Shown in pieces: positions 5,819-26,486 of a stretch of 36,263 nt of DNA. The first letter of the stretch is position 1. Each line of letters begins with the position of its first letter. The notes under the pieces were generated by a model. It did not search any database, was not told the origin of the DNA, and worked only from the letters and a program-made list of their open reading frames with translations. The stretch is from Lachnospiraceae bacterium (GTDB lineage: Bacteria; Bacillota; Clostridia; Lachnospirales; Lachnospiraceae), in the NCBI GenBank assembly GCA_022791755.1, contig JAAVZR010000020.1:1-36263 (forward strand), read 5' to 3'. A program made the translations under genes and the position numbers.

Positions 5819-5874
5819 AGGTTTGTTTTCTGTGAAAAAAATGCTGGACTATTTTGTCGGGATATGAGAGAATA

Positions 5875-5910
5875 GGGGGACAGGAAATCATCTGTTGCTT
5901 TTGTCCCCCC
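5875..5910 (+). terminator. Hairpin after the zinc-ribbon gene, possible terminator
   Basis: GGGGGACA (5875-5882) pairs perfectly with TGTCCCCC (5902-5909) around a 19-base loop. Only a short T-rich stretch (TGATTTTC) follows. It could end the upstream transcript or act as a leader hairpin for the scaffold/GGGtGRT operon 60 bases further on. Confidence 0.5.
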
Positions 5911-5971
5911 TGATTTTCATCCGGGCAGGGCAGACAGCGGTGATTTATCACTTAACGAAAGGAGTTTTATC

Positions 5972-6664
5972 ATGATTTATTCACATGAGGTTGAGAAAAT
6001 GTGCGCCGTAGCTCAGGGCGTAGGCCATGGCGCTGCTCCCATTCCCGAAGAAGCGAAGTGGGTGAAGGCGAAAGAGATCAAGGATATCTCCGGCCTGACC
6101 CATGGTATCGGCTGGTGCGCACCTCAGCAGGGCGCCTGCAAGCTGACGCTGAATGTAAAAGAGGGTATCATCCAGGAGGCGCTGGTGGAGACCATCGGCT
6201 GTTCCGGTATGACCCATTCGGCGGCCATGGCCTCAGAGATCCTGCCGGGCCGCACTCTTTTGGAGGCGCTGAACACCGACCTGGTGTGTGATGCGATTAA
6301 TACAGCCATGAGAGAACTGTTCCTTCAGATCGTATATGGCCGTACTCAGAGTGCGTTCTCCGAGGATGGTCTGCCTATCGGCGCCGGTCTGGAAGATCTG
6401 GGCAAGGGCCTGCGTTCCCAGGTGGGTACGATGTACGGCACGCTGAAGAAGGGCCCCCGCTATCTGGAGATGGCCGAAGGCTATGTGACAGGTATCGCTC
6501 TGGATGCCGACGATCAGATCATCGGCTACCAGTTCGTATCCCTGGGCAAGATGACCGACTTCATCAAGAAGGGCGACGACCCCAACACGGCCTGGGAGAA
6601 GGCCAAGGGTCAGTATGGCCGCGTAGCAGATGCTGTCAAGATCATCGATCCCCGGATGGAATAA
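5972..6664 (+). CDS. IscU/NifU-like iron-sulfur scaffold protein paired with GGGtGRT
   Basis: The protein is 230 aa. Its central region ETIGCSGMTHSAAMASEIL resembles the IscU/NifU segment that carries the second cluster-ligand cysteine (C77 here). C49 and C56 in GWCAPQQGAC are candidates for other ligands. It is longer than IscU (about 130 aa), with an extra C-terminal part of unknown role. The GAAAGGAG site fits the ATG at 5972. The GGGtGRT gene follows 13 bases later; this order is a known conserved pair in clostridia, and databases commonly call the first member an iron-sulfur assembly scaffold. No cysteine desulfurase or other Isc/Suf gene is nearby, so its client is unknown. Confidence 0.85.
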   Translation: MIYSHEVEKMCAVAQGVGHGAAPIPEEAKWVKAKEIKDISGLTHGIGWCAPQQGACKLTLNVKEGIIQEALVETIGCSGMTHSAAMASEILPGRTLLEALNTDLVCDAINTAMRELFLQIVYGRTQSAFSEDGLPIGAGLEDLGKGLRSQVGTMYGTLKKGPRYLEMAEGYVTGIALDADDQIIGYQFVSLGKMTDFIKKGDDPNTAWEKAKGQYGRVADAVKIIDPRME

Positions 6665-6677
6665 GGAGGACTAAGAA

Positions 6678-7688
6678 ATGGCTTTATTTGAATCCTATGA
6701 GAGAAGAATTGATAAAATCAATGGCGTACTGAACGGCTACGGCATCGCTTCCATCGAGGAGGCCGAGAAGATTACAAAGGACGCCGGTCTGGATGTATAT
6801 CATATGGTGGAGAAGATCCAGCCGATCTGTTTTGAAAATGCGAAGTGGGCGTACACCGTGGGCGCTGCCATCGCGATCAAGAAGGATTGCCGCAAGGCTG
6901 CGGACGCTGCCGCCGCCATCGGCGAGGGCCTGCAGGCCTTCTGCATTCCCGGTTCTGTGGCAGATCAGCGCAAGGTGGGCCTGGGCCATGGCAACCTGGG
7001 CAAGATGCTCTTAGAGGAGAGCACGGATTGCTTCTGCTTCCTGGCCGGTCATGAGTCCTTTGCGGCGGCAGAGGGAGCCATCGGCATTGCGGAGAAGGCG
7101 AACCGTGTCCGTCAGAAACCTCTGCGTGTTATCTTAAACGGTCTGGGTAAGGACGCCGCACAGGTGATCGCCAGAATCAACGGCTTTACCTTTGTGGAGA
7201 CGGAGATGGACTACTACACCGGCGAGGTGAAGGAAGTATACAGAAAAGCTTACTCCGACGGCCCCCGGGCGAAGGTAAACTGCTACGGCGCCAATGATGT
7301 GACGGAAGGTGTGGCGATCATGTGGAAGGAAGGCGTGGACGTGTCCATCACCGGCAATTCCACCAACCCCACCAGATTCCAGCATCCGGTGGCCGGTACA
7401 TATAAGAAGGAGTGCGTGGAGAAGGGCAAGAAGTATTTCTCCGTGGCCTCCGGCGGCGGCACAGGTCGTACGCTGCATCCCGATAACATGGCGGCGGGTC
7501 CTGCCTCCTACGGTATGACTGATACCATGGGACGTATGCACTCCGACGCTCAGTTCGCAGGTTCCTCCTCCGTTCCCGCCCATGTGGAGATGATGGGTCT
7601 GATCGGCGCAGGAAATAACCCCATGGTCGGTATGACCGTGTCGGTGGCAGTGGCCATTGAGGAAGCAGCGAAGGCCGGGAAATTCTGA
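6678..7688 (+). CDS. GGGtGRT family protein, function unknown
   Basis: The 336-residue protein carries the family signature SGGGTGRTLHPDN, with GGGTGRT at residues 259-265. The Gly-rich C-terminal region continues with GPASYGMTDTMGRMHSD and GAGNNPMVGMTVSVAVAIEEA. No signal peptide or membrane segment is seen, so it should be cytoplasmic. AAGGAGG lies 10 bases before the ATG. It is in an operon with the IscU-like protein upstream, which suggests it either receives or helps build an iron-sulfur cluster (inference). Its biochemical activity is not established to my knowledge. The transcript likely ends at the palindrome at 7725-7785. Confidence 0.92.
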   Translation: MALFESYERRIDKINGVLNGYGIASIEEAEKITKDAGLDVYHMVEKIQPICFENAKWAYTVGAAIAIKKDCRKAADAAAAIGEGLQAFCIPGSVADQRKVGLGHGNLGKMLLEESTDCFCFLAGHESFAAAEGAIGIAEKANRVRQKPLRVILNGLGKDAAQVIARINGFTFVETEMDYYTGEVKEVYRKAYSDGPRAKVNCYGANDVTEGVAIMWKEGVDVSITGNSTNPTRFQHPVAGTYKKECVEKGKKYFSVASGGGTGRTLHPDNMAAGPASYGMTDTMGRMHSDAQFAGSSSVPAHVEMMGLIGAGNNPMVGMTVSVAVAIEEAAKAGKF

Positions 7689-7724
7689 CTGACTTCATAC
7701 AGTTGATTTTCTGAAACATGCTAA

Positions 7725-7785
7725 ATATGGGAGTAGTGTGGAGAGATGTATATAATTTATACATGCTCCTGCACTGCTCCCATAT
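7725..7785. repeat. Long imperfect palindrome between convergent genes
   Basis: Positions 7725-7752 pair with about 7757-7785 (ATATGGGAG..., ending CTCCCATAT) with few mismatches and a very short AT-rich loop. It lies between the convergent GGGtGRT and merR genes. It may be a bidirectional terminator, although neither side has a good T-run. A small palindromic mobile element is an alternative. Confidence 0.75.
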
Positions 7786-7872
7786 CTGTATTTCCGTACC
7801 GAAAAAAGGTTATACCCGCAATGTGGGGAAAACGCCGGACTCAGGCCGTCTTATACCCTCTCCCCGGATTCA

Positions 7873-13052: not shown

Positions 13053-13757
13053 ATGGAAAAAGCGAGACGTGTGCTGCTGAAACTAAGCGGCGAAGCGCTG
13101 GCCGGTGAAAGCAGGACAGGCTTTGACCTGCCCACCGTGCAAAACGTGGCCAGACAGGTGAGAGAAGCTGTGGATGCCGGTGTGCGGGTAGGCATCGTCA
13201 TCGGCGGCGGGAATTTCTGGCGCGGCCGCACAGGCAATGAGATCGACCGCACGAAATCGGACCAGATCGGTATGCTGGCCACGGTGATGAACGCGATCTA
13301 TGTGTCGGAGGTGTTCCGGACGGAGGGAATGCAGACGCAAGTGCTGACTCCCTTTGCATGCGGCAGCATGACAAAGCTGTATTCCAAGGACCGCGCGAAT
13401 CAATACTGGGATCGCGGCATGGTGGTTTTCTTCGCCGGAGGGACGGGCCATCCCTATTTTTCCACGGATACGGGCGTGGCGCTTCGCGCCGTCGAGATGG
13501 AGGCGGATGTGATCCTCTTAGCCAAGGCTGTGGACGGCGTATATGACAGCGATCCCCGTATTCATCCTGAGGCGAAGAAGTACGATACAGTGACGATCCA
13601 GGAAGTGATCGATAAAAAGCTGGCGGTGGTGGATCTGACAGCCTCTATTATGTGTATGGAAAATCATATGCCCATGGCGGTGTTCGGCCTCAATGAGGAG
13701 AACAGCATAGCCAACGCCATGAAAGGGAAAATAAACGGCACCGTCGTGACCGTGTAG
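13053..13757 (+). CDS. pyrH: Uridylate kinase (UMP kinase)
   Basis: This enzyme phosphorylates UMP to UDP in pyrimidine nucleotide synthesis, as a hexamer of the amino-acid kinase fold. The 234-residue protein has the nucleotide/phosphate loops LLKLSGEAL and IVIGGGNFWRG, the UMP-binding FACGSMTKLY region, FAGGTGHPYFSTDT and the ATP-site segment KAVDGVYDSDPR. GAGGT precedes the ATG at 13053. frr follows after 12 bases. In most Firmicutes tsf would be the upstream neighbour; here it is not. Confidence 0.98.
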   Translation: MEKARRVLLKLSGEALAGESRTGFDLPTVQNVARQVREAVDAGVRVGIVIGGGNFWRGRTGNEIDRTKSDQIGMLATVMNAIYVSEVFRTEGMQTQVLTPFACGSMTKLYSKDRANQYWDRGMVVFFAGGTGHPYFSTDTGVALRAVEMEADVILLAKAVDGVYDSDPRIHPEAKKYDTVTIQEVIDKKLAVVDLTASIMCMENHMPMAVFGLNEENSIANAMKGKINGTVVTV

Positions 13758-13769
13758 GAGGATAAGCGT

Positions 13770-14324
13770 ATGGAAGAGAAAATCATGATGTATGAGGAGA
13801 AGATGGAGAAGACTCTGAGCACCCTGAAGGAGGATTTCGGCTCTATCCGCGCAGGCCGTGCCAATCCGAAGGTGCTTGACAGGATTCGTGTGGATTATTA
13901 TGGCACACCCAGCACGATTCAGCAGGTGGCCAATGTGTCGGTTCCCGAGCCGCGGATGATACAGATCCAGCCCTGGGAGAAGAATCTGATCCGTGAGATC
14001 GAGAAGGCGATCAATCTGTCCGACCTGGGGATCAATCCCACCAATGACGGTCGTGTGATCCGCCTGGTCTTTCCGGAGCTGACGGAGGAGCGCCGTAAGG
14101 ATCTGTCCAAAGATGTGAAGAAGAAGGGGGAAGCCGCCAAGGTGGCGATCCGCAATATCCGCCGGGATGCCAACGATACCTTTAAGAAGATGAATAAGGC
14201 CAATGAGCTGACGGAGGACGATCAGAAGCTGGGCGAGGAGAAGATCCAGAAGTTGACGGACAAGTTCATCGAGAGGGTGGACAAGGAAGTCGAGATGAAG
14301 ACAAAGGAAATTATGACGGTATAG
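13770..14324 (+). CDS. frr: Ribosome recycling factor
   Basis: RRF splits the post-termination ribosome together with EF-G. The 184-residue length is standard. Visible family features are the N-terminal helix, [15 protein letters not shown] and [20 protein letters not shown] of the hinge and beta domain, and the Arg/Lys-rich [18 protein letters not shown] helix. GGAGG sits eight bases before the ATG. It lies between pyrH and uppS in the conserved order. Confidence 0.98.
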
Positions 14325-14451
14325 AGTCCGGATCTATGCCTGCAATATGGAGGAAGGCGAAGGAGCGTATCCTGTGTCAGAGAGCGCAGGCGCATTTACA
14401 AACAGGGGGCAGGAGGAGACTACCTGCCTTCCCGTATGTCTGGAGGATCTT

Positions 14452-15162
14452 ATGGAAGATGGAAAGATACCGGCCCATGTGGCGATTATCATGGATGGAA
14501 ACGGGCGCTGGGCCAGGAAACGGGGCCTGCCCCGCAAGATGGGCCATGTGGAGGGCTGCAAGGTGGTGGAGAGGACCGTGGAGGATGCGGCCCGGCTGGG
14601 AATCCGCTATCTGACAGTCTATGCGTTTTCGACGGAAAACTGGAAGCGTTCGGAGGATGAGGTGGAAGCGCTGATGCAGCTGTTTCGCTACTATGCCAAA
14701 CGCCTTTTAAAGATTGCAAATGAGAATAACGTGCGGGTGAAAATGATCGGAGAGAGAAGCCGTTTCGCTCCGGATATCATAAAGGCGATCAACTCGCTGG
14801 AGGATACGACGGCAGGTAACACAGGGCTTACCTTTGTCATTGCCGTGAATTACGGAAGCCGTGACGAGCTGCGAAGAGGTGTGACGCGCATGCTTCGCGA
14901 TTGTGAGGAGGGACACATAACGCCGGATCAGGTGACGGAAGAAACGATCGCTTCCTACCTGGATACGGCAAAGATTCCTGACCCTGACCTTTTGATCCGC
15001 ACCAGCGGCGAGGAGAGGTTGTCCAACTTTATGCTGTGGCAGCTGGCCTATTCGGAGCTGTATTTCTGCGATGTGCTGTGGCCGGATTTTACAAAAGAGG
15101 AATTGGTAAAAGCCATCGGGGAGTATAATAGGAGAGAACGCCGGTTCGGCGATGCCGGATAG
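14452..15162 (+). CDS. uppS: Isoprenyl transferase, probable undecaprenyl diphosphate synthase
   Basis: This cis-prenyltransferase extends farnesyl diphosphate with isopentenyl diphosphate to make the lipid carrier for cell wall synthesis. The 236-residue protein shows the signature [16 protein letters not shown] (catalytic D15), [11 protein letters not shown], and the C-terminal [20 protein letters not shown]. The start at 14452 has GGAGG five bases upstream and begins directly before the conserved [11 protein letters not shown]. An in-frame ATG at 14347 would add 35 non-conserved residues and has no ribosome binding site. Confidence 0.97.
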
Positions 15163-15190
15163 GGACAATGGCGTCGGAAGGAGGGCAGAT

Positions 15191-16006
15191 ATGTTCTGGA
15201 TTCGACTAAGAAGCAGTGTGTTGATCGTGATCGTGGCCGTTTTGATTCTGTGGCCTGGCGGGCCGGTGACCATGGCGGGGCTGTGCCTCATCTCGCTGAC
15301 CGGTCTTTATGAGCTGAATCGGGTGGCAGGGATAGAGCGGCAGCTGCCGGGGATGGTATCCTATCTTTTTACCATATTTTATTATGTAATGTCTTATGTG
15401 GATCCCGGACAGGAGAATATGCTCTTTGTGACCGGCTATCTGACGGTGCTTCTGACCGTCTATGTGCTGTCTTTTCCCAGATATCGTTTTGAGCAGATGT
15501 CGACGGCCTTTTTCGGGTTGTTCTATGTGACGGTGATGCTTTCCTATGTGGTGAGGATCCGCAATGTGGGAAACGGTCTTCTGACCCTTCTGATTTTTAT
15601 CAGCTCCTGGGGGTGCGATACCTGTGCCTACTGTGTGGGGATGCTGTGCGGCCGTCATAAGATGACGCCGAAGCTGAGCCCGAAGAAATCCATTGAGGGG
15701 GCAGTGGGGGGCATGACCGGGGCCGCTCTTTTGGGCGCTCTGTTTGGCGTCTTGTTCGGGAACAGGCTTGGACTGGCAGCACAGGATTTTTCACCGGTGT
15801 GGGGCTGCGCTCTGATTTGCCTGGCGGGGTCGGTGGGCTCTCAGATCGGCGATCTGGCAGCTTCCGCCATCAAGAGAAATTTTGATATAAAAGACTATGG
15901 CACGTTGATTCCGGGCCATGGCGGGATTCTGGACCGGTTTGACAGCGTGATCTTCGTCGCGCCGGCCATCTTTGCCGTGATCCGTGTGATCGGACTGACA
16001 GCCTGA
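15191..16006 (+). CDS. cdsA: Phosphatidate cytidylyltransferase
   Basis: CdsA activates phosphatidic acid with CTP to CDP-diacylglycerol, the precursor of the main membrane phospholipids. The 271-residue integral membrane protein has about eight hydrophobic segments. It ends with the family signature, visible as [20 protein letters not shown] followed by [26 protein letters not shown] six bases before 15191 marks the start; an in-frame ATG at 15152 would overlap uppS and has a poor site. Confidence 0.97.
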
Positions 16007-16052
16007 TAAAGTTTGCCGGTGTGAGATACGGCAGAAAAGAGGACAGAATTAT

Positions 16053-17198
16053 ATGAGAAAAACGATCTCCATACTGGGATCTACTGGCTCGGTGGGAATG
16101 CAGACACTGGATGTGGTGAGAAGCTGCGGCGATATGCGTATCACCGGCCTGGCAGCCGGAAGAAATGTGGACCGCATGGTGGCGCAGATACGGGAGTTTA
16201 AACCTCGTATCGCCTGTATGTGGGATGAGGAACGGGCCAAGGAGCTGAAAGTCCGTGTGGCGGATACCAGGACCAAGGTGGTGACGGGCATGGATGGGCT
16301 CATCGAGGTGGCTACAGAGGAGAACGCGGAGATTGTCGTGACCGCAGTGGTGGGTATGATCGGTCTGCGCCCTACGATCGCGGCCATGGAAGCCGGTAAG
16401 GATATTGCGCTGGCAAACAAGGAGACCTTTGTGACGGCCGGTCATCTCATCATGAAAAAGGCCAAGATGATCAACACCCGCATTCTGCCGGTGGACAGCG
16501 AGCACAGCGCCATTTTTCAGTGCTTAAACGGCGAGAGCCCCAAGCGGATCAGCCGGATCCTTCTGACGGCTTCCGGCGGTCCCTTCCGGGGAATGACCAG
16601 GCGGCAGATGGAAAAGATCACAGTACAGCAGGCGCTGCGTCATCCCAACTGGTCCATGGGCCATAAAATCACCATCGACTGCTCGACCATGGTCAATAAG
16701 GGACTGGAGGTCATAGAGGCCAAATGGCTTTTTAATGTGGAGATGGGACAGATCGAGGTGGTGGTGCAGCCGGAGAGTATCATTCACTCCATGGTAGAGT
16801 TCAAGGACGGCTCCGTGATTGCTCAGATGGGAGTGCCGGATATGCGCCTGCCGATTCACTATGCCCTTAATTATCCTCAGAGGATGCCTTTTCAGGGCGG
16901 ACGACTGGATTTTAAGAAATTGAGCACACTACATTTTGAAGAGCCGGATATGGAGAATTTTCGCGGACTGAAGCTGGCCTATGAGGCGGGCGAGACCGGC
17001 GGTACGATGCCCACGGTGCTCAATGCGGCCAATGAGTGGGCTGTAAGCCGTTTTCTCAACGGGAAGCTGCGCTATCTGGAGATTGTGGATGTCATCGAGG
17101 ATGCCATGCGGGCGCACAAGGTAAAATGGAATCCGTCGCTGGAAAAGATCCTGGAGACGGAGAGGGAGACATATGCTTATATTGAAAGCAGGTGGTAG
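16053..17198 (+). CDS. dxr: 1-deoxy-D-xylulose 5-phosphate reductoisomerase
   Basis: Dxr carries out the NADPH-dependent committed step of the MEP isoprenoid pathway, making 2-C-methyl-D-erythritol 4-phosphate. The 381-residue protein has the nucleotide-binding GSTGSVG (residues 9-15), LANKETFVTAG, and the metal ligands D148 and E150 in PVDSEHSAIFQC, followed by LTASGGPFRG and a His-rich substrate loop (ALRHPNWSMGHKIT). It lies upstream of rseP, ispG and polC. ispG serves the same pathway and uppS uses its product. Confidence 0.98.
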   Translation: MRKTISILGSTGSVGMQTLDVVRSCGDMRITGLAAGRNVDRMVAQIREFKPRIACMWDEERAKELKVRVADTRTKVVTGMDGLIEVATEENAEIVVTAVVGMIGLRPTIAAMEAGKDIALANKETFVTAGHLIMKKAKMINTRILPVDSEHSAIFQCLNGESPKRISRILLTASGGPFRGMTRRQMEKITVQQALRHPNWSMGHKITIDCSTMVNKGLEVIEAKWLFNVEMGQIEVVVQPESIIHSMVEFKDGSVIAQMGVPDMRLPIHYALNYPQRMPFQGGRLDFKKLSTLHFEEPDMENFRGLKLAYEAGETGGTMPTVLNAANEWAVSRFLNGKLRYLEIVDVIEDAMRAHKVKWNPSLEKILETERETYAYIESRW

Positions 17199-17201
17199 AA
17201 A

Positions 17202-18239
17202 TTGAGTATCCTTTTGGCGGTTTTGGTATTCAGCCTACTGATCTTTTCCCATGAGCTGGGGCATTTTCTGTTGGCGAAGAAGAACGGAATCGGCGTGACG
17301 GAGTTTGCCATCGGCATGGGCCCCACGCTGATGCATTTTGATAAGAAGGAGACCCGCTACTCTCTGAAGCTGATCCCCTTTGGCGGTTTCTGCCAGATGG
17401 TGGGAGAGCTGGAGGACGACAGTGAGAATATGGCGGAAAACTCTTTTAACAGCAAGGGCCCCTGGGCCAGGCTGTCCGTGATTCTGGCCGGACCGGTCTT
17501 TAACTTTATCTTCGCCGGAATTCTGTCGCTGATTGTGATCGGCAGCGTGGGAATCGACCATCCGGTGATCTCCGGCGTCATCGAAGGGCTGCCTTGCAGT
17601 GAGGCAGGTCTGGAGGCAGGGGACCGGATTGTGAAGATCAACGGAAAGAATATCGTGGTGCTGCGGGATTTGCAGCTTTATATGGCGCTTCACAAAGGAG
17701 AGCATCTGGATATCGTCTATGAGAGAGACGGAGAGCGCCACGCCATATCGGTGGATCCGGTATATGCGCAGGATCAGGGCTATATGATCGGGATCCAGTA
17801 CCAGAACCGGCGCACGCCCACAGGAGTGCTGGACACCATAAAATACAGTATCTATGAGGTGAAATACTGGATCAGTTATACGCTGACCTCCCTGCGGATG
17901 CTGGTGAGCGGCCAGGTGGGAGTCAACGATGTCTCAGGAGCCGTGGGAATCGTGGATACTCTTGATACCATCGTGGATGAGACGAAGGAATACGGCGTTT
18001 ATCCGGTATTTCTGGAGCTGGCTAATTTCTGTATTCTCTTAAGCGCTAATCTGGGCGTGATTAATCTGCTGCCCATACCGGCCATGGACGGAGGGCGTGC
18101 CCTGTTTATTCTGCTGGAGATCGTGCGGGGCAAACCGGTGGACCGGGAAAAGGAGGGCCTGGTGCATACCATCGGCCTGGTATGCCTGATGGTTTTGATG
18201 GTATTTTTACTTTTTAACGATGTGAGAAAACTTCTCTGA
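17202..18239 (+). CDS. rseP: Site-2 intramembrane zinc metalloprotease (RseP/RasP)
   Basis: This M50 family protease cuts membrane proteins such as anti-sigma factors and signal peptide remnants within the membrane. The 345-residue protein has the zinc motif HELGH at residues 17-21 (H17, E18, H21), a central PDZ domain (about 125-200, with GLEAGDRIVKINGK), and the third ligand region NLLPIPAMDGGRAL near the C-terminus, with four hydrophobic segments. Translation starts at TTG 17202, three bases after the dxr stop, with AGGTGG upstream; the protease motif lies too close to the N-terminus for a later start. Confidence 0.97.
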   Translation: MSILLAVLVFSLLIFSHELGHFLLAKKNGIGVTEFAIGMGPTLMHFDKKETRYSLKLIPFGGFCQMVGELEDDSENMAENSFNSKGPWARLSVILAGPVFNFIFAGILSLIVIGSVGIDHPVISGVIEGLPCSEAGLEAGDRIVKINGKNIVVLRDLQLYMALHKGEHLDIVYERDGERHAISVDPVYAQDQGYMIGIQYQNRRTPTGVLDTIKYSIYEVKYWISYTLTSLRMLVSGQVGVNDVSGAVGIVDTLDTIVDETKEYGVYPVFLELANFCILLSANLGVINLLPIPAMDGGRALFILLEIVRGKPVDREKEGLVHTIGLVCLMVLMVFLLFNDVRKLL

Positions 18240-18267
18240 TGAGAGACGGAAGCCGGGAAGGAACAAT

Positions 18268-19326
18268 ATGTACCGAGAGCATACGAAAAAGATCCGGATC
18301 GGATCGGTGACGGTGGGCGGCGGCGCCCCCGTGGCGATCCAGTCCATGACCAATACAAAGACCCAGGACGTGACGGCGACGGTGGAGCAGATTCATCGTC
18401 TGGAGGATGCCGGGTGTGAGATCGTCCGCTGTGCGGTGCCGGATATGGAGGCGGCTGCGGCACTTCGTCAGATCCGCAGCCATATTCATATTCCGCTGGT
18501 GGCGGACATTCATTTTGACTATAAGCTGGCGATTGCAGCCATGGAGAACGGGGCCGATAAGATCCGAATCAATCCGGGCAATATCGGAGGTCCCGATAAG
18601 GTGCGGGCTGTGGTGGAGAGCGCAAAACGGTTTCATGTGCCGGTGCGGGTGGGGGTCAACAGCGGTTCTCTGGAGAGAGAGCTTCTGAAAAAGTACGGCG
18701 GGGTCACGGCGGAGGGCCTGGTGGAGAGTGCGCTGGAAAAGGTGCGGATGCTGGAGGCCTGTGATTTTTACGATATTGTAATCAGCATCAAGTCTTCGGA
18801 TGTCCTGATGTCTGTCCGGGCCCATGAGCTTTTGGCCCGTGAGAGCCGGTATCCGGTTCATGTGGGAATCACCGAGGCGGGGACAGTCCTTACCGGCACG
18901 GTGAAATCCGCCGTGGGACTGGGGATTATACTGTATCAGGGCATCGGCGATACGATTCGCGTATCTCTGACCGGGGATCCGGTGGAGGAGGTGCGGGCGG
19001 CGAAGAGGATTCTGGGCTGTCTGGGGCTTCGCAAGACCGGTGTGGAGGTGGTGTCCTGTCCCACCTGCGGGCGGACACAGATCGACCTCATCGGTCTGGC
19101 CGGCCAGGTGGAGTCGCTGGTATCCGGCTATGATCTGGACCTGAAGGTGGCGGTCATGGGATGCGCCGTCAATGGCCCGGGGGAGGCCAGGGAGGCGGAT
19201 CTGGGGATCGCGGGAGGTCACGGAGAAGGGCTGATTTTCCGGAAGGGCCAGATTTTGCGCAAGCTGCCGGAGGATGCGCTTTTGGGAGCGCTGAAGGAAG
19301 AACTGGATCATTGGAAACAGGGGTGA
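18268..19326 (+). CDS. ispG: 4-hydroxy-3-methylbut-2-en-1-yl diphosphate synthase
   Basis: IspG is the [4Fe-4S] enzyme that makes HMBPP late in the MEP pathway. At 352 aa it is the short bacterial form. It opens with the typical IRIGSVTVGGGAPVAIQSMT. The cluster ligands are C264 and C267 in SCPTCGRTQ and C299 in GCAVNGPGE, with E306 also present. It stands between rseP and polC, as in many Firmicutes. lytB/ispH, the next step, is not in the window. Confidence 0.98.
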   Translation: MYREHTKKIRIGSVTVGGGAPVAIQSMTNTKTQDVTATVEQIHRLEDAGCEIVRCAVPDMEAAAALRQIRSHIHIPLVADIHFDYKLAIAAMENGADKIRINPGNIGGPDKVRAVVESAKRFHVPVRVGVNSGSLERELLKKYGGVTAEGLVESALEKVRMLEACDFYDIVISIKSSDVLMSVRAHELLARESRYPVHVGITEAGTVLTGTVKSAVGLGIILYQGIGDTIRVSLTGDPVEEVRAAKRILGCLGLRKTGVEVVSCPTCGRTQIDLIGLAGQVESLVSGYDLDLKVAVMGCAVNGPGEAREADLGIAGGHGEGLIFRKGQILRKLPEDALLGALKEELDHWKQG

Positions 19327-19332
19327 GGGGGA

Positions 19333-22300
19333 TTGGGAAAACCGTTTTTTGAAGCGATTCCGGGGTTAGAGGTGCCGGACGAGATGAGAGAGCTTTTGAA
19401 GCTGACCACAGTGGAGAAGGTGAAAATCTCCAAGGACCGAACCAATATCTGTATTTATCTTACCAGCCCCCGGCTGATTCAGAAGAAAAATATTTTTAAT
19501 CTGGAGGGACAGATCTGCCGCCAGCTCTTTCCCGACTACGGGATGACGGTGAAGATCATCGAGCGATATACGCTGTCGGCCCAGTATACGCCGGAAAAAT
19601 TCTGGGAGCTGTATTACGACAGTGCTTTACTGGAATTAAAGAGCTTCGGAAGGATACTGGGGAATCTCTTAAGGGACGCCCGGGTACGGTTCACCGGAGA
19701 GCATACCATGTCTCTGACGCTGCCGGACAATATCGTGACGAGAGACCGGGAGCGGGAGCTGAGGGAAATCCTCGAGAAGATTTTTAATGAGCGCTGCGGT
19801 TTCGGCGTGCAGGTGGACCTGGTCCACGAGGTCCGGCAGGAGGCGGAACCGCCAGCTGAGAATGAACGCATGATTGATGAGATGGCGAGGGAGATCGTAA
19901 GCCGCTCTTCCTTCGGCCAGGGCGCCGTACAGGGACGACAGAAGGAAGAGGCCGGCGGGAACGAAAGGGCCGGGAAGCAAAAGACCGGAGCCCAAAAAGG
20001 AGCTTCCTCACAGGGGGGCGGCACAGGAAAGGGAGCGGCAGAGAACGCGCCGGCAGGACCGAGAAGCGGCGGCGGGCCGGGAGGCCAGGGGAAGTCCGGT
20101 GAACGCAGAGATTTCTTTCGCCGCAAGCCCAGTAATCCGGACGTGCTTTGGGGCCGTGATTTCGATGACGAGGCTGTGGTTCTGAGTACGGTGATCGGTG
20201 AGATGGGAGAGATCGCCGTCAACGGCAAGGTGATCACCTTGGACAAGCGGGAGCTTCGCAGCGGCAATTATATGCTGATCTTTGATATGACGGACTTCAC
20301 CGATACCATTACGGTGAAGATGTTTATCCGTGCCGAAGCCATAGAAGAGCTGGAAGCGGTCATCCGGCCAGGGTCCTTTTTAAAGATCAAGGGAGTCACC
20401 AATACCGATAAGTTCGACGGGGAACTGGTGCTGTCCTCGGTGAGCGGAATCCGCAAAGGGGAGGAGAACGAGGATCCCCGCCGGGATCTGTCCGAGGTAA
20501 AGCGGGTGGAACTGCACTGTCATACCAAGATGAGCGATATGGACGGTGTGTCCACAGTGACGGATATCATAAAACAGGCCAAAAAGTTTGGTCACAAAGC
20601 TCTGGCTATCACGGATCATGGCTGCGTACAGGCGTTTACGGAAGCCAGCCATGCAGTGAAGCCGGACGAGGATTTCAAGCTGATTTACGGCGTGGAGGGG
20701 TATCTGGTGGATGACCTGCAGGAGATTGTGACGCGATGCGGGAGCCAGACACTGGAGGATACCTTTGTGGTGTTCGATATCGAGACCACAGGGCTCAGCG
20801 CTCTGAAGAATCAGATCATCGAGATCGGGGCGGTGAAGATACAGGGCGGCGAGATCCGGGATCGTTTCTCCACCTTTGTGAATCCTGGCGTACCGATTCC
20901 CTTTGAGATCGAGAAGCTGACCCATATCAATGACGCCATGGTGATGGGCAGTCCGTCCATCGAGGAGGCGCTGCCGCGCTTTCTGGAGTTTGCGAAGGAT
21001 GCGGTGATGGTGGCGCACAATGCTTCCTTTGATATGGGATTTATGGAACATAATGCCAGGCAGTTGGGCCGGGAATTTAAGAATACCTATGTGGATACGG
21101 TGGGGCTGGCCAGAGTCCTGCTGCCGCAGCTGTCCCGCTATAAGCTGGATACGGTGGCCAAGGCTTTGAATATTTCTCTGGAGCATCATCACCGGGCAGT
21201 GGACGATGCCGGGACGACAGCGGAGATCTTTCTGCATTTTCAGCAAAGGCTGGCACAGATGGAGATCCGTACCCTGGAGCAGATCAACGGCCTGAGCCAT
21301 TTAAGCGACGACGCGTTAAAGAAACTGAAGAGCTATCATATTATTATCCTGGCCAAGAATGATACCGGGCGGATCAATCTCTACCGGCTGGTATCCGCCT
21401 CGCATCTTCGTTACTTCGCCAGGCAGCCCCGGATTCCGAAGAGCCTGCTGGCCAGACACCGGGAGGGACTGATCATCGGTTCGGCCTGTGAGGCGGGGGA
21501 GCTGTTCCGGGCAGTGGCGGACGGAGCTTCTGACGAGGATCTGGCCAAGATTGTCCGGTTTTATGATTACCTGGAGGTCCAGCCGCTGGGAAATAACGAG
21601 TTTATGCTGCGGGATGAGAAGAGCAGCGCCTCCACCATGGAGGACCTGATGGAGTTTAACCGAAAGATCATCGGTCTGGGAGAGCAGTTTAAAAAACCGG
21701 TGGTGGCCACCGGGGATGTGCACTTTCTGAACCCGGAGGACGGGATTTACCGTCAGATTATCATGGCAGGCAAGGGATTTAAGGACACGGATAATCAGGC
21801 GCCCCTTTACTACCGCACCACCGAAGAGATGTTAAAGGAGTTTGAATATCTGGGCAGCGATAAGGCCTATGAGGTGGTGGTGGAGAATACGAACCGGATT
21901 GCCAATATGTGCGAACGAATTTCGCCGGTGAGACCGGATAAATGTCCTCCGGTGATCCCGGATTCGGACAAGCAGCTGCGGCAGATCTGCTACAACCGGG
22001 CCCACGAGATATACGGGGAAGAGCTGCCGCCCATCGTGTCAGAACGGCTGGAACGGGAGCTGAACTCCATTATCAGCAACGGATTTGCCGTGATGTATAT
22101 CATTGCCCAGAAGCTGGTGTGGAAATCCAACGAGGACGGGTATCTGGTGGGTTCCCGCGGCTCGGTGGGTTCCTCCTTTGTGGCTACCATGGCGGGGATC
22201 ACGGAGGTGAATCCGCTGAGTCCCCATTATTACTGTGCGGACTGCCACTATTATGACTTTGACTCAGAGGAAGTGAAGGCTTTCGCCGGAATGGCAGGCT

Positions 22301-23847
22301 GCGATATGCCGGACAAGGTATGTCCTGACTGTGGAAAACCTCTGAAGAAGGAAGGCTTTGATATTCCCTTTGAGACCTTTTTGGGCTTTAAGGGGAATAA
22401 GGAGCCGGATATCGACCTGAATTTTTCCGGGGAATACCAGCCCAAGGCTCATAAGTATACGGAGATCATCTTTGGCGCAGGCCAGACCTTCCGGGCCGGG
22501 ACCACGGGCACGCTGGCGGATAAGACGGCCTACGGGTTTGTGAAAAACTACTATGAGGAACGGGGACGGCGCAAGCGCAAATGCGAGATCAACCGGATTA
22601 CTCAGGGCTGTGTCGGCGTGCGCCGCACCACCGGCCAGCACCCCGGGGGGATTATTGTGCTGCCCTACGGAGAGGAGATCGATTCCTTTACGCCGGTACA
22701 GCATCCGGCCAACGATATGACGACGGATATCGTGACCACGCATTTTGACTATCATTCCATTGACCACAATCTTCTGAAGTTGGACATTCTGGGACACGAT
22801 GATCCCACCATGATCCGGATGCTGGAAAACATGGTTCCGACGTTTCGGGCTCAGGAGATCCCTCTGGACAGCAAGGAGGTCATGAGTCTGTTCATGAATA
22901 CGGAGGCTCTGGGAATCCGGCCGGAGGACATCAGCGGCTGCCAGCTGGGAGCGCTGGGAATTCCGGAGTTCGGCACCGATTTCGCCATGCAGATGCTGAT
23001 CGACGCCCAGCCCAGATATTTTTCCGATCTGGTCCGCATTGCCGGCCTGGCCCATGGGACCGACGTGTGGCTGGGAAACGCGCAGACGTTGATCAAGGAG
23101 GGGACCGCTACCATACGGACCGCCATCTGTACCCGTGACGATATCATGATCTATCTGATCTCCATGGGGATGGAGCCCAGCCTGTCCTTTGACATCATGG
23201 AAAAGGTGCGTAAGGGAAAGGGGCTTACCCCCGACTGGGAGAAAGCCATGCGGGAGAGTAATGTGCCCCAATGGTATATTGATTCCTGCAATAAGATCAA
23301 ATATATGTTCCCCAAGGCCCATGCGGCGGCCTATGTGATGATGGCGTGGCGCATCGCCTACTATAAGATTTATCATCCGCTGGCCTACTACGCGGCGTTT
23401 TTCAGCATCCGCGCCTCAGGCTTTTCCTATGAGCTGATGTGTCTGGGACAGGATAAGCTGAAATATCATCTGGCGGAGTACCGGGGCCGCCTGGATACCC
23501 TGACACCCAAGGAACAGTCCACGCTTCGTGACATGCGGATCGTGGAGGAGATGTACGCCAGAGGGTATGATTTCATGCCCATTGACCTGTTTCGGGCCAA
23601 AGCAAGAGATTTTCAGATCATCGACGGGAAGCTGATGCCGGCGTTAAACAGCATAGAAGGGCTGGGGGTTAAGGCGGCGGAGGCGATCGTGGAGGCGGCG
23701 AAGGATGGTCCGTTTTTGTCTTTGGAGGATTTTTACCAGAGAACGAAGGTGAACAAATCGATAATGGATCAGATGGCCGGCATGGGGATGTTCGGAGATA
23801 TCCCCAGAAGTAACCAGATTTCGCTGTTTGATTTGATGGAAGCATAG
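19333..23847 (+). CDS. polC: DNA polymerase III PolC-type alpha subunit with proofreading exonuclease
   Basis: PolC is the main replicative polymerase of low-GC Gram-positives. The 1504-residue protein has the expected domain order. An N-terminal domain (1-185) is followed by a low-complexity Gly/Lys/Ala linker (about 190-265) and an OB fold (about 290-375). A PHP domain follows with H395/H397 in LHCHTKMSDMDG. The 3'-5' exonuclease DEDD domain has D482/E484 in FDIETTG. The polymerase core has SRGSVGSSFVATM, a zinc module with two CxxC pairs, and catalytic D1026/D1028 in PDIDLNF. The start is TTG 19333, six bases after the ispG stop; GKPFF is the normal family opening, and a later ATG (19384) would cut into conserved sequence. 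Confidence 0.98.
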   Translation: MGKPFFEAIPGLEVPDEMRELLKLTTVEKVKISKDRTNICIYLTSPRLIQKKNIFNLEGQICRQLFPDYGMTVKIIERYTLSAQYTPEKFWELYYDSALLELKSFGRILGNLLRDARVRFTGEHTMSLTLPDNIVTRDRERELREILEKIFNERCGFGVQVDLVHEVRQEAEPPAENERMIDEMAREIVSRSSFGQGAVQGRQKEEAGGNERAGKQKTGAQKGASSQGGGTGKGAAENAPAGPRSGGGPGGQGKSGERRDFFRRKPSNPDVLWGRDFDDEAVVLSTVIGEMGEIAVNGKVITLDKRELRSGNYMLIFDMTDFTDTITVKMFIRAEAIEELEAVIRPGSFLKIKGVTNTDKFDGELVLSSVSGIRKGEENEDPRRDLSEVKRVELHCHTKMSDMDGVSTVTDIIKQAKKFGHKALAITDHGCVQAFTEASHAVKPDEDFKLIYGVEGYLVDDLQEIVTRCGSQTLEDTFVVFDIETTGLSALKNQIIEIGAVKIQGGEIRDRFSTFVNPGVPIPFEIEKLTHINDAMVMGSPSIEEALPRFLEFAKDAVMVAHNASFDMGFMEHNARQLGREFKNTYVDTVGLARVLLPQLSRYKLDTVAKALNISLEHHHRAVDDAGTTAEIFLHFQQRLAQMEIRTLEQINGLSHLSDDALKKLKSYHIIILAKNDTGRINLYRLVSASHLRYFARQPRIPKSLLARHREGLIIGSACEAGELFRAVADGASDEDLAKIVRFYDYLEVQPLGNNEFMLRDEKSSASTMEDLMEFNRKIIGLGEQFKKPVVATGDVHFLNPEDGIYRQIIMAGKGFKDTDNQAPLYYRTTEEMLKEFEYLGSDKAYEVVVENTNRIANMCERISPVRPDKCPPVIPDSDKQLRQICYNRAHEIYGEELPPIVSERLERELNSIISNGFAVMYIIAQKLVWKSNEDGYLVGSRGSVGSSFVATMAGITEVNPLSPHYYCADCHYYDFDSEEVKAFAGMAGCDMPDKVCPDCGKPLKKEGFDIPFETFLGFKGNKEPDIDLNFSGEYQPKAHKYTEIIFGAGQTFRAGTTGTLADKTAYGFVKNYYEERGRRKRKCEINRITQGCVGVRRTTGQHPGGIIVLPYGEEIDSFTPVQHPANDMTTDIVTTHFDYHSIDHNLLKLDILGHDDPTMIRMLENMVPTFRAQEIPLDSKEVMSLFMNTEALGIRPEDISGCQLGALGIPEFGTDFAMQMLIDAQPRYFSDLVRIAGLAHGTDVWLGNAQTLIKEGTATIRTAICTRDDIMIYLISMGMEPSLSFDIMEKVRKGKGLTPDWEKAMRESNVPQWYIDSCNKIKYMFPKAHAAAYVMMAWRIAYYKIYHPLAYYAAFFSIRASGFSYELMCLGQDKLKYHLAEYRGRLDTLTPKEQSTLRDMRIVEEMYARGYDFMPIDLFRAKARDFQIIDGKLMPALNSIEGLGVKAAEAIVEAAKDGPFLSLEDFYQRTKVNKSIMDQMAGMGMFGDIPRSNQISLFDLMEA

Positions 23848-23902: not shown

Positions 23903-25318
23903 ATGAAATGTGACGTTGTGATTGTGGGGGCCGGACCGGCCGGTATCTTTACTGCCCTGGAGCTGGTGAGGAGGGGGAGCCGCCGGAAAATTGTGATTGT
24001 GGAGAAGGGGAGGGCTATTGAGAAGCGCAAATGTCCCAAAAGTCAGACTCAAAAATGCGTGAACTGTAAGCCTTACTGCCATATCACCACCGGATTTTCG
24101 GGGGCGGGCGCTTTTTCCGACGGCAAACTGTCTTTGAGCTACGAGGTGGGCGGGGAGCTGCCGGAGCTGATTGGAGAGGATTTTGCTCAGGAGATGATTG
24201 ATTATACCGACCGGATTTATCTGGAGTTCGGCGCGGACCCGAAGGTGGAGGGGATCTCGGACACGCAGAAGATCAAAGAGATCCGAAAGAGGGCGATCCA
24301 GGCCGGCCTGAAGCTGGTGGACTGTCCGATCCGTCATCTGGGAACGGAAAAGGCTCAGGAGATTTATTTTGCCATCGAGCAGTATCTGCTGGAGCAGGGA
24401 GTGGAAATTCTGTTTGACCATAACTGTGTCAATCTGCTGATGGAGGACGGCGTGTGCCGTGGCGTTAGGGTCGAGCCGGCGGGAGGACGCGGGGAGCCTG
24501 AGGAGATCCGGGCCGGACATACGGTGGTGGCCACAGGCCGCCGCGGTGCGGACTGGCTGGAGGCCCTGTGTGAGGAGCACGGAATTGCTCATCAGCCCGG
24601 TACGGTGGATATCGGCGTCCGGGTGGAGGTGCGCAACGAGATCATGGAGGATGTGAATAATGTGCTCTATGAGTCGAAGCTGATCGGCTATCCCCAGCCC
24701 TTTAAGAATAAGGTGCGCACCTTCTGCCAGAATCCCGGCGGCTTTGTGAGTCAGGAGAACTATGACAACGACCTGGCTGTGGTGAACGGCCATTCCTATA
24801 AGGAACGCAAATCCGGCAATACCAATCTGGCGATTCTGTGCTCCCACAATTTTACGGAGCCCTTTAATCAGCCCATCGCCTATGCCCAGAAGGTGGGGGA
24901 ACTGACCAACATGCTGGGCTCAGGGCACATACTGGTACAGCGCTTCGGCGATATTCTGGATGGAAAGCGCACCTGGCAGAAGGAGTTAAACCGTTCCAAT
25001 GTCCGTCCCACCCTGCCGGATGCGGTGGCCGGCGATATCACTGCCGCACTGCCGTACCGGGCCATGGTCAATATCATCGGCTTTATCCAGTCGGTGGAGC
25101 ATGTGGTGCCGGGATTTGCCAGTCCGGAGACGCTTCTGTACTCGCCTGAGCTGAAGTTTTACAGCAATCGTGTGAGGATGGATCGGCAGTTTACCACAAA
25201 TATTCCGGGCCTCCATGCGCTGGGAGATTCCAGCGGCTGGACCAGAGGGCTGATGATGGCTTCGGTCATGGGCGTGCTCATGGGACAGCAGCTGGCAAAG
25301 GAAGAAGAAAAGGCATGA
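23903..25318 (+). CDS. FAD-dependent oxidoreductase (COG2509-like)
   Basis: The 471-residue flavoprotein has a Rossmann dinucleotide site at the N-terminus (VVIVGAGPAGIF, G9-x-G11-x-x-G14), a second motif HTVVATGRRGADW, and the C-terminal FAD segment GLHALGDSSGWTRGLMMAS. A cysteine cluster (C44, C52, C55, C59 in KCPKSQTQKCVNCKPYC) is a possible Fe-S or redox site. Its substrate is unknown. The stop overlaps the mobB start by four bases (ATGA), so it is translationally coupled to molybdenum cofactor genes, which hints at a link but does not show one. Confidence 0.88.
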   Translation: MKCDVVIVGAGPAGIFTALELVRRGSRRKIVIVEKGRAIEKRKCPKSQTQKCVNCKPYCHITTGFSGAGAFSDGKLSLSYEVGGELPELIGEDFAQEMIDYTDRIYLEFGADPKVEGISDTQKIKEIRKRAIQAGLKLVDCPIRHLGTEKAQEIYFAIEQYLLEQGVEILFDHNCVNLLMEDGVCRGVRVEPAGGRGEPEEIRAGHTVVATGRRGADWLEALCEEHGIAHQPGTVDIGVRVEVRNEIMEDVNNVLYESKLIGYPQPFKNKVRTFCQNPGGFVSQENYDNDLAVVNGHSYKERKSGNTNLAILCSHNFTEPFNQPIAYAQKVGELTNMLGSGHILVQRFGDILDGKRTWQKELNRSNVRPTLPDAVAGDITAALPYRAMVNIIGFIQSVEHVVPGFASPETLLYSPELKFYSNRVRMDRQFTTNIPGLHALGDSSGWTRGLMMASVMGVLMGQQLAKEEEKA

Positions 25319-25887
25319 CGAAGGAGAGACAGAAGCTGCCGGAAAAATCCAAAAGGCCGGTGGCGGTGGCGGTCAGCGGCGTCAAAAACTCGGGGAAGAC
25401 CACTATGATCGCCGCTCTTTTACCCCGGCTGCGGGCATGGGGGTGGAAGGTGGCGGTGATCAAGCACGACGGACATGATTTTGAACCGGATGTGCCGGGA
25501 ACGGATACCTGGATCCACCGCCGGGCGGGAGCCTACGGCACGGCGATCTTTTCCGGACAGCGCATGATGATCGTCAAGGAGGCGCAGGTCACGGAGAGGG
25601 AGCTGTGGGAGGCTTTTCCGGAGGCAGACCTGATTCTGCTGGAGGGCATGAAGCACAGCCCCTATCCGAAGATTGAGCTGGTCCGCGAGGGAAACTCCGA
25701 AGCCTGTGTCTGTGATCCGGCTACGCTGCTGGCCGTGGCCACGAACCGGAGGGAGCGTGAGGGCCTGCCGGAGGGAATACCAGTGATGGACCTGGAAGAC
25801 TATGAGGGGATCGCAGTGCTGATCCGGGATTATGTAAAAGCCTGCTGTAAAGGGCAGCGCCAGGTGACGGCGGAGGCGCGGATATGA
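25315..25887 (+). CDS. mobB: Molybdopterin-guanine dinucleotide biosynthesis protein B
   Basis: MobB is a GTP-binding accessory of molybdenum cofactor maturation that assists MobA. The 190-residue protein has a P-loop SGVKNSGKTT at residues 21-30 and the typical KVAVIKHDGHDFEPDVPGTD and DTWIHRRAGA segments, followed by DLILLEGMKHSPYPKIE. It overlaps the preceding oxidoreductase gene and the following mobA gene by four bases each. No molybdoenzyme is seen in the window. Confidence 0.93.
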   Translation: MTKERQKLPEKSKRPVAVAVSGVKNSGKTTMIAALLPRLRAWGWKVAVIKHDGHDFEPDVPGTDTWIHRRAGAYGTAIFSGQRMMIVKEAQVTERELWEAFPEADLILLEGMKHSPYPKIELVREGNSEACVCDPATLLAVATNRREREGLPEGIPVMDLEDYEGIAVLIRDYVKACCKGQRQVTAEARI

Positions 25888-26486
25888 GAGACGGGGCGGA
25901 GACGGCGATGGTCCTTTTAATGGGGGGCAAAAGCAGCCGGATGGGGACATCCAAAGCCTACCTTACCTGGGAGGGGGAGCCTTTCTGGCAGCGGATCGCC
26001 AGAGAGATGGCTGGCTGCGGTCCTCTGTATCTGTCGGTGGCCGCCGACTTCGCTGATCCGGAGCTGTCCTCGTCGTACCGGCTGATTCGCGATGAGGTGG
26101 AGGCGGCGGGGCCCATGGGGGGGCTCCTGTCGGTCATGGGGAGCCTTTCGGAGGATGCCTTTTTTATCTGCGCCTGCGATATGCCTCTCATGAGCCGGGG
26201 GTATATCCGGCGCCTTCTTAGGCTGTGGCAGGAACGGCAGGGAGAGTGGGACGGTCTGATGGTGAAAAGCGCCGGAGGGAGGATCTATACGACGGCGGGG
26301 ATCTATCACAGGAGGCTCTTACCGGCAGTGCGAGAGCGGATCGCCGTGGGGAATTACCGGATGATGGCCCTGTTACGGGACAGCCGGATCTGGTATCTGC
26401 CGGAGGAAGAGCTGGGAGAAGATCAAAAGGCGCTGACGAATCTCAACACGATGGAAGAATACAGGGCGATTCACGGCATGGTTTGA
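25884..26486 (+). CDS. mobA: Molybdenum cofactor guanylyltransferase
   Basis: MobA transfers GMP from GTP to molybdopterin to form the bis-MGD type cofactor. The 200-residue protein keeps the nucleotidyltransferase opening LLMGGKSSRMGTSKAYL, where the family has LAGGxSxRMGxDK, then GPMGGLL and the metal-binding CDMPLMS, and ends with the typical LTNLNTMEEY. GGAGG lies before the ATG at 25884. Immediately after its stop the sequence changes to a truncated sensor kinase, so the operon end is a rearrangement point. Confidence 0.93.
   Translation: MRDGAETAMVLLMGGKSSRMGTSKAYLTWEGEPFWQRIAREMAGCGPLYLSVAADFADPELSSSYRLIRDEVEAAGPMGGLLSVMGSLSEDAFFICACDMPLMSRGYIRRLLRLWQERQGEWDGLMVKSAGGRIYTTAGIYHRRLLPAVRERIAVGNYRMMALLRDSRIWYLPEEELGEDQKALTNLNTMEEYRAIHGMV

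Follow-up and report, generated by a model that had tools for sequence, protein, structure and literature searches.

Two adjacent genes at positions 5,972 to 7,688 of a 36,263-nucleotide stretch from a Lachnospiraceae bacterium (contig JAAVZR010000020.1 of assembly GCA_022791755.1; the whole stretch is called the window below) encode a protein resembling the scaffold IscU and a member of the GGGtGRT family. The question that this locus raises is what the IscU-like protein does for such a partner. An earlier note on this DNA proposed a dedicated scaffold that loads a cluster on, or forms a complex with, the GGGtGRT protein. The main result of our analysis is an asymmetry between the two proteins, in that the conserved cysteines lie on the IscU-fold protein while none is invariant on GGGtGRT. 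We propose that the pair may be a dedicated two-subunit iron-sulfur enzyme whose cluster stays on the IscU-fold subunit, a reading to which we assign a probability of about 0.4. Both open reading frames (ORFs) and the 13-base gap between them were confirmed, and the features needed for the argument are as follows.

5972..6664, + strand: IscU-fold protein, 230 amino acids; proposed cluster-holding subunit
6083..6343, + strand: IscU-like domain, residues 38-124
6116..6118, + strand: Cys49 codon, kept in 185/186 sequences
6197..6223, + strand: GCSGMTHSA block, residues 76-84, which holds Cys77 (kept in 186/186)
6287..6289, + strand: Cys106 codon (186/186), directly preceding predicted helix 107-122
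6678..7688, + strand: GGGtGRT protein (PF14057), 336 amino acids; proposed substrate-binding subunit
7452..7487, + strand: GGGTGRTLHPDN motif, residues 259-270 of the GGGtGRT protein

The linkage of the two genes is far beyond chance. We surveyed 299 genomes of the host phylum, drawn evenly and with the source genome included. PF14057 was found in 20 copies in 19 of these genomes, and a profile of the scaffold-like protein gave 20 full-length matches (403-457 bits) in the same 19. In all 20 pairs the genes are direct neighbours on a single strand, 3 to 97 bases apart, and the co-occurrence corresponds to a hypergeometric p of about 2e-30 with relatedness ignored. The other 24 matches to the scaffold profile reached at most 34.1 bits over 45 to 70 profile residues in open frames of 121-187 codons, and they appear to behave as ordinary IscU or SufU would. 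Among the best 80 genome loci, which are closest relatives only, a scaffold-like gene lies directly upstream of GGGtGRT in 78, in some of which it is cut by a contig end; the other two (L023 and L067) are contig ends that start within 47 bases of the GGGtGRT gene. The dedicated pairing suggested earlier is thus stronger than had been claimed, with the genes together wherever both sides could be examined rather than mostly apart.

The same arrangement was seen on plasmids and chromids. GGGtGRT occurs on 10 such records, and the pair was present in all eight loci examined, two further Vibrio records, with a match score equal to that of the third, having been left out. These loci come from Bacteroidota, Collinsella (Actinomycetota), Subdoligranulum and Vibrio and share the same gene order. 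In Parabacteroides distasonis (L101:5800-5991), an ORF of 63 amino acids that by eye has a membrane-bound look lies between the pair genes. Four IMG/VR contigs (L109-L112) carry a scaffold-like gene followed by GGGtGRT, of which only the start was read for L110, and they are probably bacterial provirus flanks or misfiled contigs. The match starts at most 336 bases from the contig end in three of the four.

Between loci, the pairwise distances of one protein correlate with those of the other at 0.93 (95 loci), a figure obtained with no control gene, and both proteins are at least 60% identical to the proteins of the window in sequences sampled from several phyla. One genome (G207; loci L094 and L100) has the pair twice, in divergent copies that each include both genes. 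The GGGtGRT proteins of these copies are 69% and 63% identical to that of the window, and the second copy has N in place of H267 and Y in place of H288, both otherwise conserved histidines, which might point to an altered activity. Natural fusions were considered as proof of contact and rejected: of nine longer database proteins, eight are internal duplications and one (P0176) is a truncated join, and all nine look like assembly errors.

The relation of the first protein to IscU is real, though weak in sequence. The protein scores below the cut-offs of NifU_N PF01592 (19.7 bits, cut-off 22), TIGR01999 (19.8 versus 192.4) and TIGR03419 (24.1 versus 187.9). A profile built from it recovers solved NifU/IscU chains at E 4.5e-5, and its predicted structure appears to have the IscU fold. 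The GCSGMTHSA block and C49, C56 and C77 are all present as described in the earlier note; its list of cysteines, however, missed the invariant C106 and included C56, which is less well kept. At 230 amino acids the protein is longer than the genome's own IscU (145 amino acids), but by 1.6 times and not nearly twofold, and it has an extra C-terminal part of about 100 residues compared with IscU/NifU_N. When the three conserved cysteines were compared with C37, C63 and C106 of E. coli IscU, one aligned: Cys77, which matches the FGC cysteine of the genome's own IscU at the position of E. coli C63. Since the likeness to IscU is limited to a predicted fold and a short sequence block, the label of scaffold goes beyond the evidence.

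Residue conservation was counted over 329 unique GGGtGRT sequences (from 240 database proteins and 108 loci, of which 224 and 106 were kept) and 186 unique partner sequences (from 120 proteins and 106 loci, of which 84 and 100 were kept, plus four viral-collection loci), with those outside the length range or cut being dropped. In the partner, H44, C77 and C106 were present in all 186 sequences, C49 in 185 and C56 in 182. No cysteine was invariant among the 329 GGGtGRT sequences. The best kept were C89 (314), C118 (304), C202 (284), C246 (258) and C51 (212), and in six of the sequences the entire protein contains just one cysteine. At three loci (L096, L097 from Heliomicrobium, and L098), GGGtGRT lacks C51, C89, C118 and C202 and the partner keeps H44, C49, C56, C77 and C106. 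The histidines of GGGtGRT are conserved, with H104, H125 and H302 in 329/329 and H236, H267 and H288 in 328/329. The asymmetry in cysteines means that a family-wide cluster on three or more cysteines is possible for the first protein only. Cysteine-based loading of a cluster on GGGtGRT was rejected as the main explanation on the same grounds, no cysteine being invariant and six members having just one.

The first protein also departs from ordinary scaffolds in its motifs and its surroundings. The CGD motif, present in the genome's own IscU and SufU, was found in 0/186 partner sequences; LPPVK, present in the genome's IscU and absent from its SufU, was likewise found in 0/186. C37, D39, C63 and C106 of IscU are listed as critical residues for binding a cluster and passing it on, and LPPVK as the motif for the chaperone HscA (PMC7585200); LPPVK-dependent cluster release is described as well (PMC6205161). 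As LPPVK may be present where HscA is absent (PMC7585200), this motif alone proves little. In the source genome, NifS, IscU and MnmA are encoded at one locus and SufS and SufU at another (NifS, SufS and MnmA were named by eye from ORFs). No match to its NifS or SufS under E 0.2 was found in the whole window, which bears out the earlier remark that no desulfurase lies nearby, and a desulfurase was found in the flanks of only 1 of 112 related loci (61 of at least 9 kb). In this sole case, Collinsella aerofaciens L103, sufB, sufD, SufS and SufU precede the pair by about 2 kb and are separated from it by a transposase. The first protein thus differs from IscU/NifU_N in its scores below the family cut-offs, its missing motifs and its flanks, and from SufU in that the genome's SufU keeps CGD and adjoins a SufS-type gene whereas the first protein does neither. 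It differs as well from the Archaeoglobus fulgidus IscS-IscU complex, where the partner is an IscS relative rather than GGGtGRT. A separate NifU_N protein of the IscU or SufU type scored above cut-off in 18 of the 19 pair genomes, and the nineteenth, G270, had no such match at E 1e-6; the idea that the pair protein is the cell's only general iron-sulfur scaffold was rejected because of these 18. As to the original proposal, a complex fits the data, whereas loading fits poorly because GGGtGRT has no invariant cysteine and some single-cysteine members and the partner lacks both the CGD aspartate and LPPVK.

The second protein is a full-length member of PF14057 (630.4 bits, cut-off 27; residues 4-330 on profile positions 1-327 of 327). 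The family name is already known and carries no function, and no function was found for the family. The claimed GGGtGRT motif is present, with residues 261-270 of the GGGTGRTLHPDN block invariant (10/10) in an alignment of 70 sequences. The predicted structure suggests an all-helical N-terminal part followed by a Rossmann-like alpha/beta domain. A profile search found no solved relative, and a single-sequence search returned two weak chance-level rows only; Foldseek with the model returned no match at E 0.001 or better. The matches from VIA-align were Rossmann-like and tied, with the FtsZ/tubulin GTPase domain and UDP-GlcNAc 2-epimerase among the comparisons and other Rossmann-like folds scoring within 1 to 2 Z of these. 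Kinship with tubulin was considered because GGGTG also occurs in FtsZ. It was not adopted: hhalign gave a probability of 0.4% to the genome's own FtsZ, and 30 GGGtGRT sequences had no match to the Tubulin Pfam family, nor to one for the epimerase. Counted by eye along helices and strands, the motif would lie after the fifth strand and not after the fourth, where we take the tubulin motif to be.

The published record links the pair to iron. Without iron, expression of BT0173-BT0174 (GGGtGRT and NifU) in B. thetaiotaomicron falls 11 to 12.8-fold according to Table 6 of PMC10434189, where hydrogenase, Rnf and fumarate reductase genes also drop. In C. pasteurianum, GGGtGRT is 7.1-fold higher with iron early and 2.2-fold late (PMC5395762, Table 2), and a NifU-related protein, which we tied to the pair by its neighbouring locus number, is 2.4 to 3.7-fold higher early and 1.6 to 2.9-fold late (PMC5395762). 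As far as the tabulated genes go, lower expression without iron is the behaviour of iron-using enzymes in both studies. In the parts of other reports that name it, GGGtGRT is highly expressed in several taxa among chicken-gut anaerobes (PMC11204068) and is listed in a rumen study (PMC7035244). In one substrate comparison of a further C. pasteurianum study, the NifU-related protein is listed at -2.1 together with ferritin and hydrogenase (PMC4916542). Vibrio cholerae VC0749, annotated as NifU-related, has a NifS gene as its neighbour and resembles a standard IscU. A passage of a C. difficile iron study lists only a NifU next to IscS (PMC6311696), and this study was not used. GGGtGRT is a listed item and not a studied one in the literature passages naming it, and no study of the pair's function was found in the literature, subscription papers lying outside the coverage. 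Regulation by Fur was examined and not supported. In 97 loci, the best upstream Fur-box match was no better than in shuffles (mean 11.0 versus 11.1 of 19; maximum 14 versus 13).

We propose that the cluster would be made by the general NifS-IscU or Suf machinery and would stay permanently on the IscU-fold subunit, held by C49, C77 and C106. Its open coordination site would be turned towards conserved loops of GGGtGRT (GHES, GNSTNPxRFQHP, GGGTGRTLHPDN and AGSSSVPAHV), this subunit supplying the putative substrate-binding site. The loops may enclose an anionic substrate, their histidine, arginine and serine residues completing the site. It is possible, though rather doubtful, that the picture can be drawn more fully: the IscU-fold protein, no longer a scaffold, would be the permanent catalytic cofactor subunit, with a three-cysteine cluster and one open site, of a new class of iron-sulfur enzyme, GGGtGRT would be a new alpha/beta enzyme that binds a nucleotide or a phosphate-bearing substrate, and gut anaerobes would make it in quantity when iron allows.

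Several observations weigh against a cluster kept on the IscU-fold subunit of such an enzyme. The cluster, the complex and the activity are themselves predictions from sequence. Only C77 aligns to an IscU ligand, with C49 and C106 assigned by position. A model of the two proteins fused had no readable interface, and its predicted local distance difference test (pLDDT) values were below 50 for the first 33 residues and for residues 123-170. The GGGTGRTLHPDN block had the lowest model confidence in the GGGtGRT protein; low confidence in the invariant loops is explained in part by invariant columns carrying no covariation. None of the 329 GGGtGRT sequences is free of cysteine and most have five to eight. 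Of the 11 without C51, C89, C118 and C202, 10 retain C246, and a single sequence among the 329 has none of the cysteine positions found in the window's protein. C246 leaves the odds of the readings unchanged, since one cysteine cannot hold a canonical cluster. The six conserved histidines of GGGtGRT could bind a metal themselves, however, so that transfer through histidine and one cysteine could still take place. Iron-dependent expression fits a storage or regulatory role too. A link to [FeFe]-hydrogenase was too weak to use (19/19 pair genomes versus 31/40 controls, p 0.046 uncorrected), the controls being 40 pair-free genomes of the survey (the lowest-numbered, G001 to G041) that were not matched for kinship; absence of a terminal oxidase was likewise too weak a link (COX1 in 1/19 versus 6/40, p 0.41).

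These observations have to be weighed against other explanations of the pair. The IscU-fold protein might be a dedicated scaffold or carrier that assembles or transports a cluster for delivery to GGGtGRT, which would then be the iron-sulfur enzyme. The relation to IscU, the predicted fold and the strict pairing agree with this, as do C89, C118 and C202 of GGGtGRT, which are common though not invariant, the presence of at least one cysteine in 329/329 and the six histidines as candidate ligands. We nevertheless consider it unlikely given the lack of an invariant GGGtGRT cysteine, the six members with only one, the partner's lack of the CGD aspartate and of LPPVK, the single desulfurase-adjoining locus among 112, and the IscU- or SufU-type protein already present in 18 of 19 genomes. 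Less probable again is sulfur transfer of the SufU type, in which the IscU-fold protein would hold zinc or a persulfide and pass sulfur on, with GGGtGRT thiolating a small molecule. A SufS-type desulfurase is adjacent in just that one locus of the 112, the genome's SufU keeps the CGD that the pair family does not, and the reported expression is strongly iron-dependent.

The pair could instead be a store or sensor of iron or iron-sulfur, made under plentiful iron. In the tabulated data its expression tracks iron in two phyla, as does that of rubrerythrin (both studies) and ferritin (one); the high expression reported for chicken-gut anaerobes (PMC11204068) and the stand-alone two-gene unit with variable neighbours are also in keeping with such a role. 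The dense invariant polar residues of GGGtGRT look like an active site, on the other hand, and Pfam searches of 30 GGGtGRT and 22 partner sequences turned up neither a ferritin-like nor a DNA-binding domain; we give this explanation a slim chance. Slimmest of all is the chance that the IscU-fold protein serves GGGtGRT as a structural or chaperone subunit that holds no metal. The fold may be reused without a cluster, and the lipoylation-system chain 3r07_C was among the weak Foldseek matches, but C77, C106 and H44 are invariant in 186/186 sequences and would not be needed for a structural role.

The gene pair looks like a transcription unit of its own, as suggested by a promoter-like element, hairpins before and after the genes and flanking genes that differ between relatives. 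The elements around the two genes are listed below.

5845..5873, + strand: promoter-like element, TGGACT and then TATGAGAGAAT with extended -10
5875..5909, + strand: leader hairpin (G-run/C-run) between the promoter-like element and the first gene
5958..5964, + strand: ribosome-binding site AAAGGAG of the first gene, by sequence
6663..6669, + strand: ribosome-binding site AAGGAGG of the second gene, by sequence, overlapping the first stop codon
7725..7785, + strand: strong hairpin 3' of the second gene, -40 kcal/mol, z -8.05 (folded 7712-7800)

A loose form of the promoter-like pattern was found upstream in 37 of 97 pair loci and a strict form in 14 of 97, compared with 0 in shuffles; a consensus promoter scan did not list the element at 5845..5873. 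The leader hairpin folds at -21.9 kcal/mol with z -2.0 (folded 5868-5925) and, judged by eye, is not obviously common to the leaders of relatives. By eye, AAAGGAG precedes the start codon in many relatives too. The hairpin at 7725..7785 is likely the transcript end, though it has no T-run and was not listed by the terminator scan. No Rfam match at gathering scores was found in the window.

Flanking genes vary over 106 loci. The commonest flanking family, nucleotidyltransferase-like by eye, is present in 24, and the second, topoisomerase-like by eye, in 23, nearly all of them closest relatives. Neighbours were also considered as a source of functional partners, and no pathway emerged from the 106 loci. 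Elsewhere in the window, positions 13053-23844 encode in a row an AA-kinase-family protein, ribosome recycling factor, undecaprenyl diphosphate synthase, a cytidylyltransferase, DXP reductoisomerase, an M50 peptidase, GcpE and a PolC-type polymerase, which has the look of a common housekeeping cluster with no relation to the pair. At 25315-26483, MobB-like and MobA-like molybdenum cofactor genes lie side by side after a flavin adenine dinucleotide (FAD)-dependent protein.

The analysis narrows the question posed by this locus from a scaffold and something to an IscU-fold protein that may hold its cluster permanently within an enzyme. If this is true, it would represent a new use of the IscU fold and would provide an activity for PF14057.
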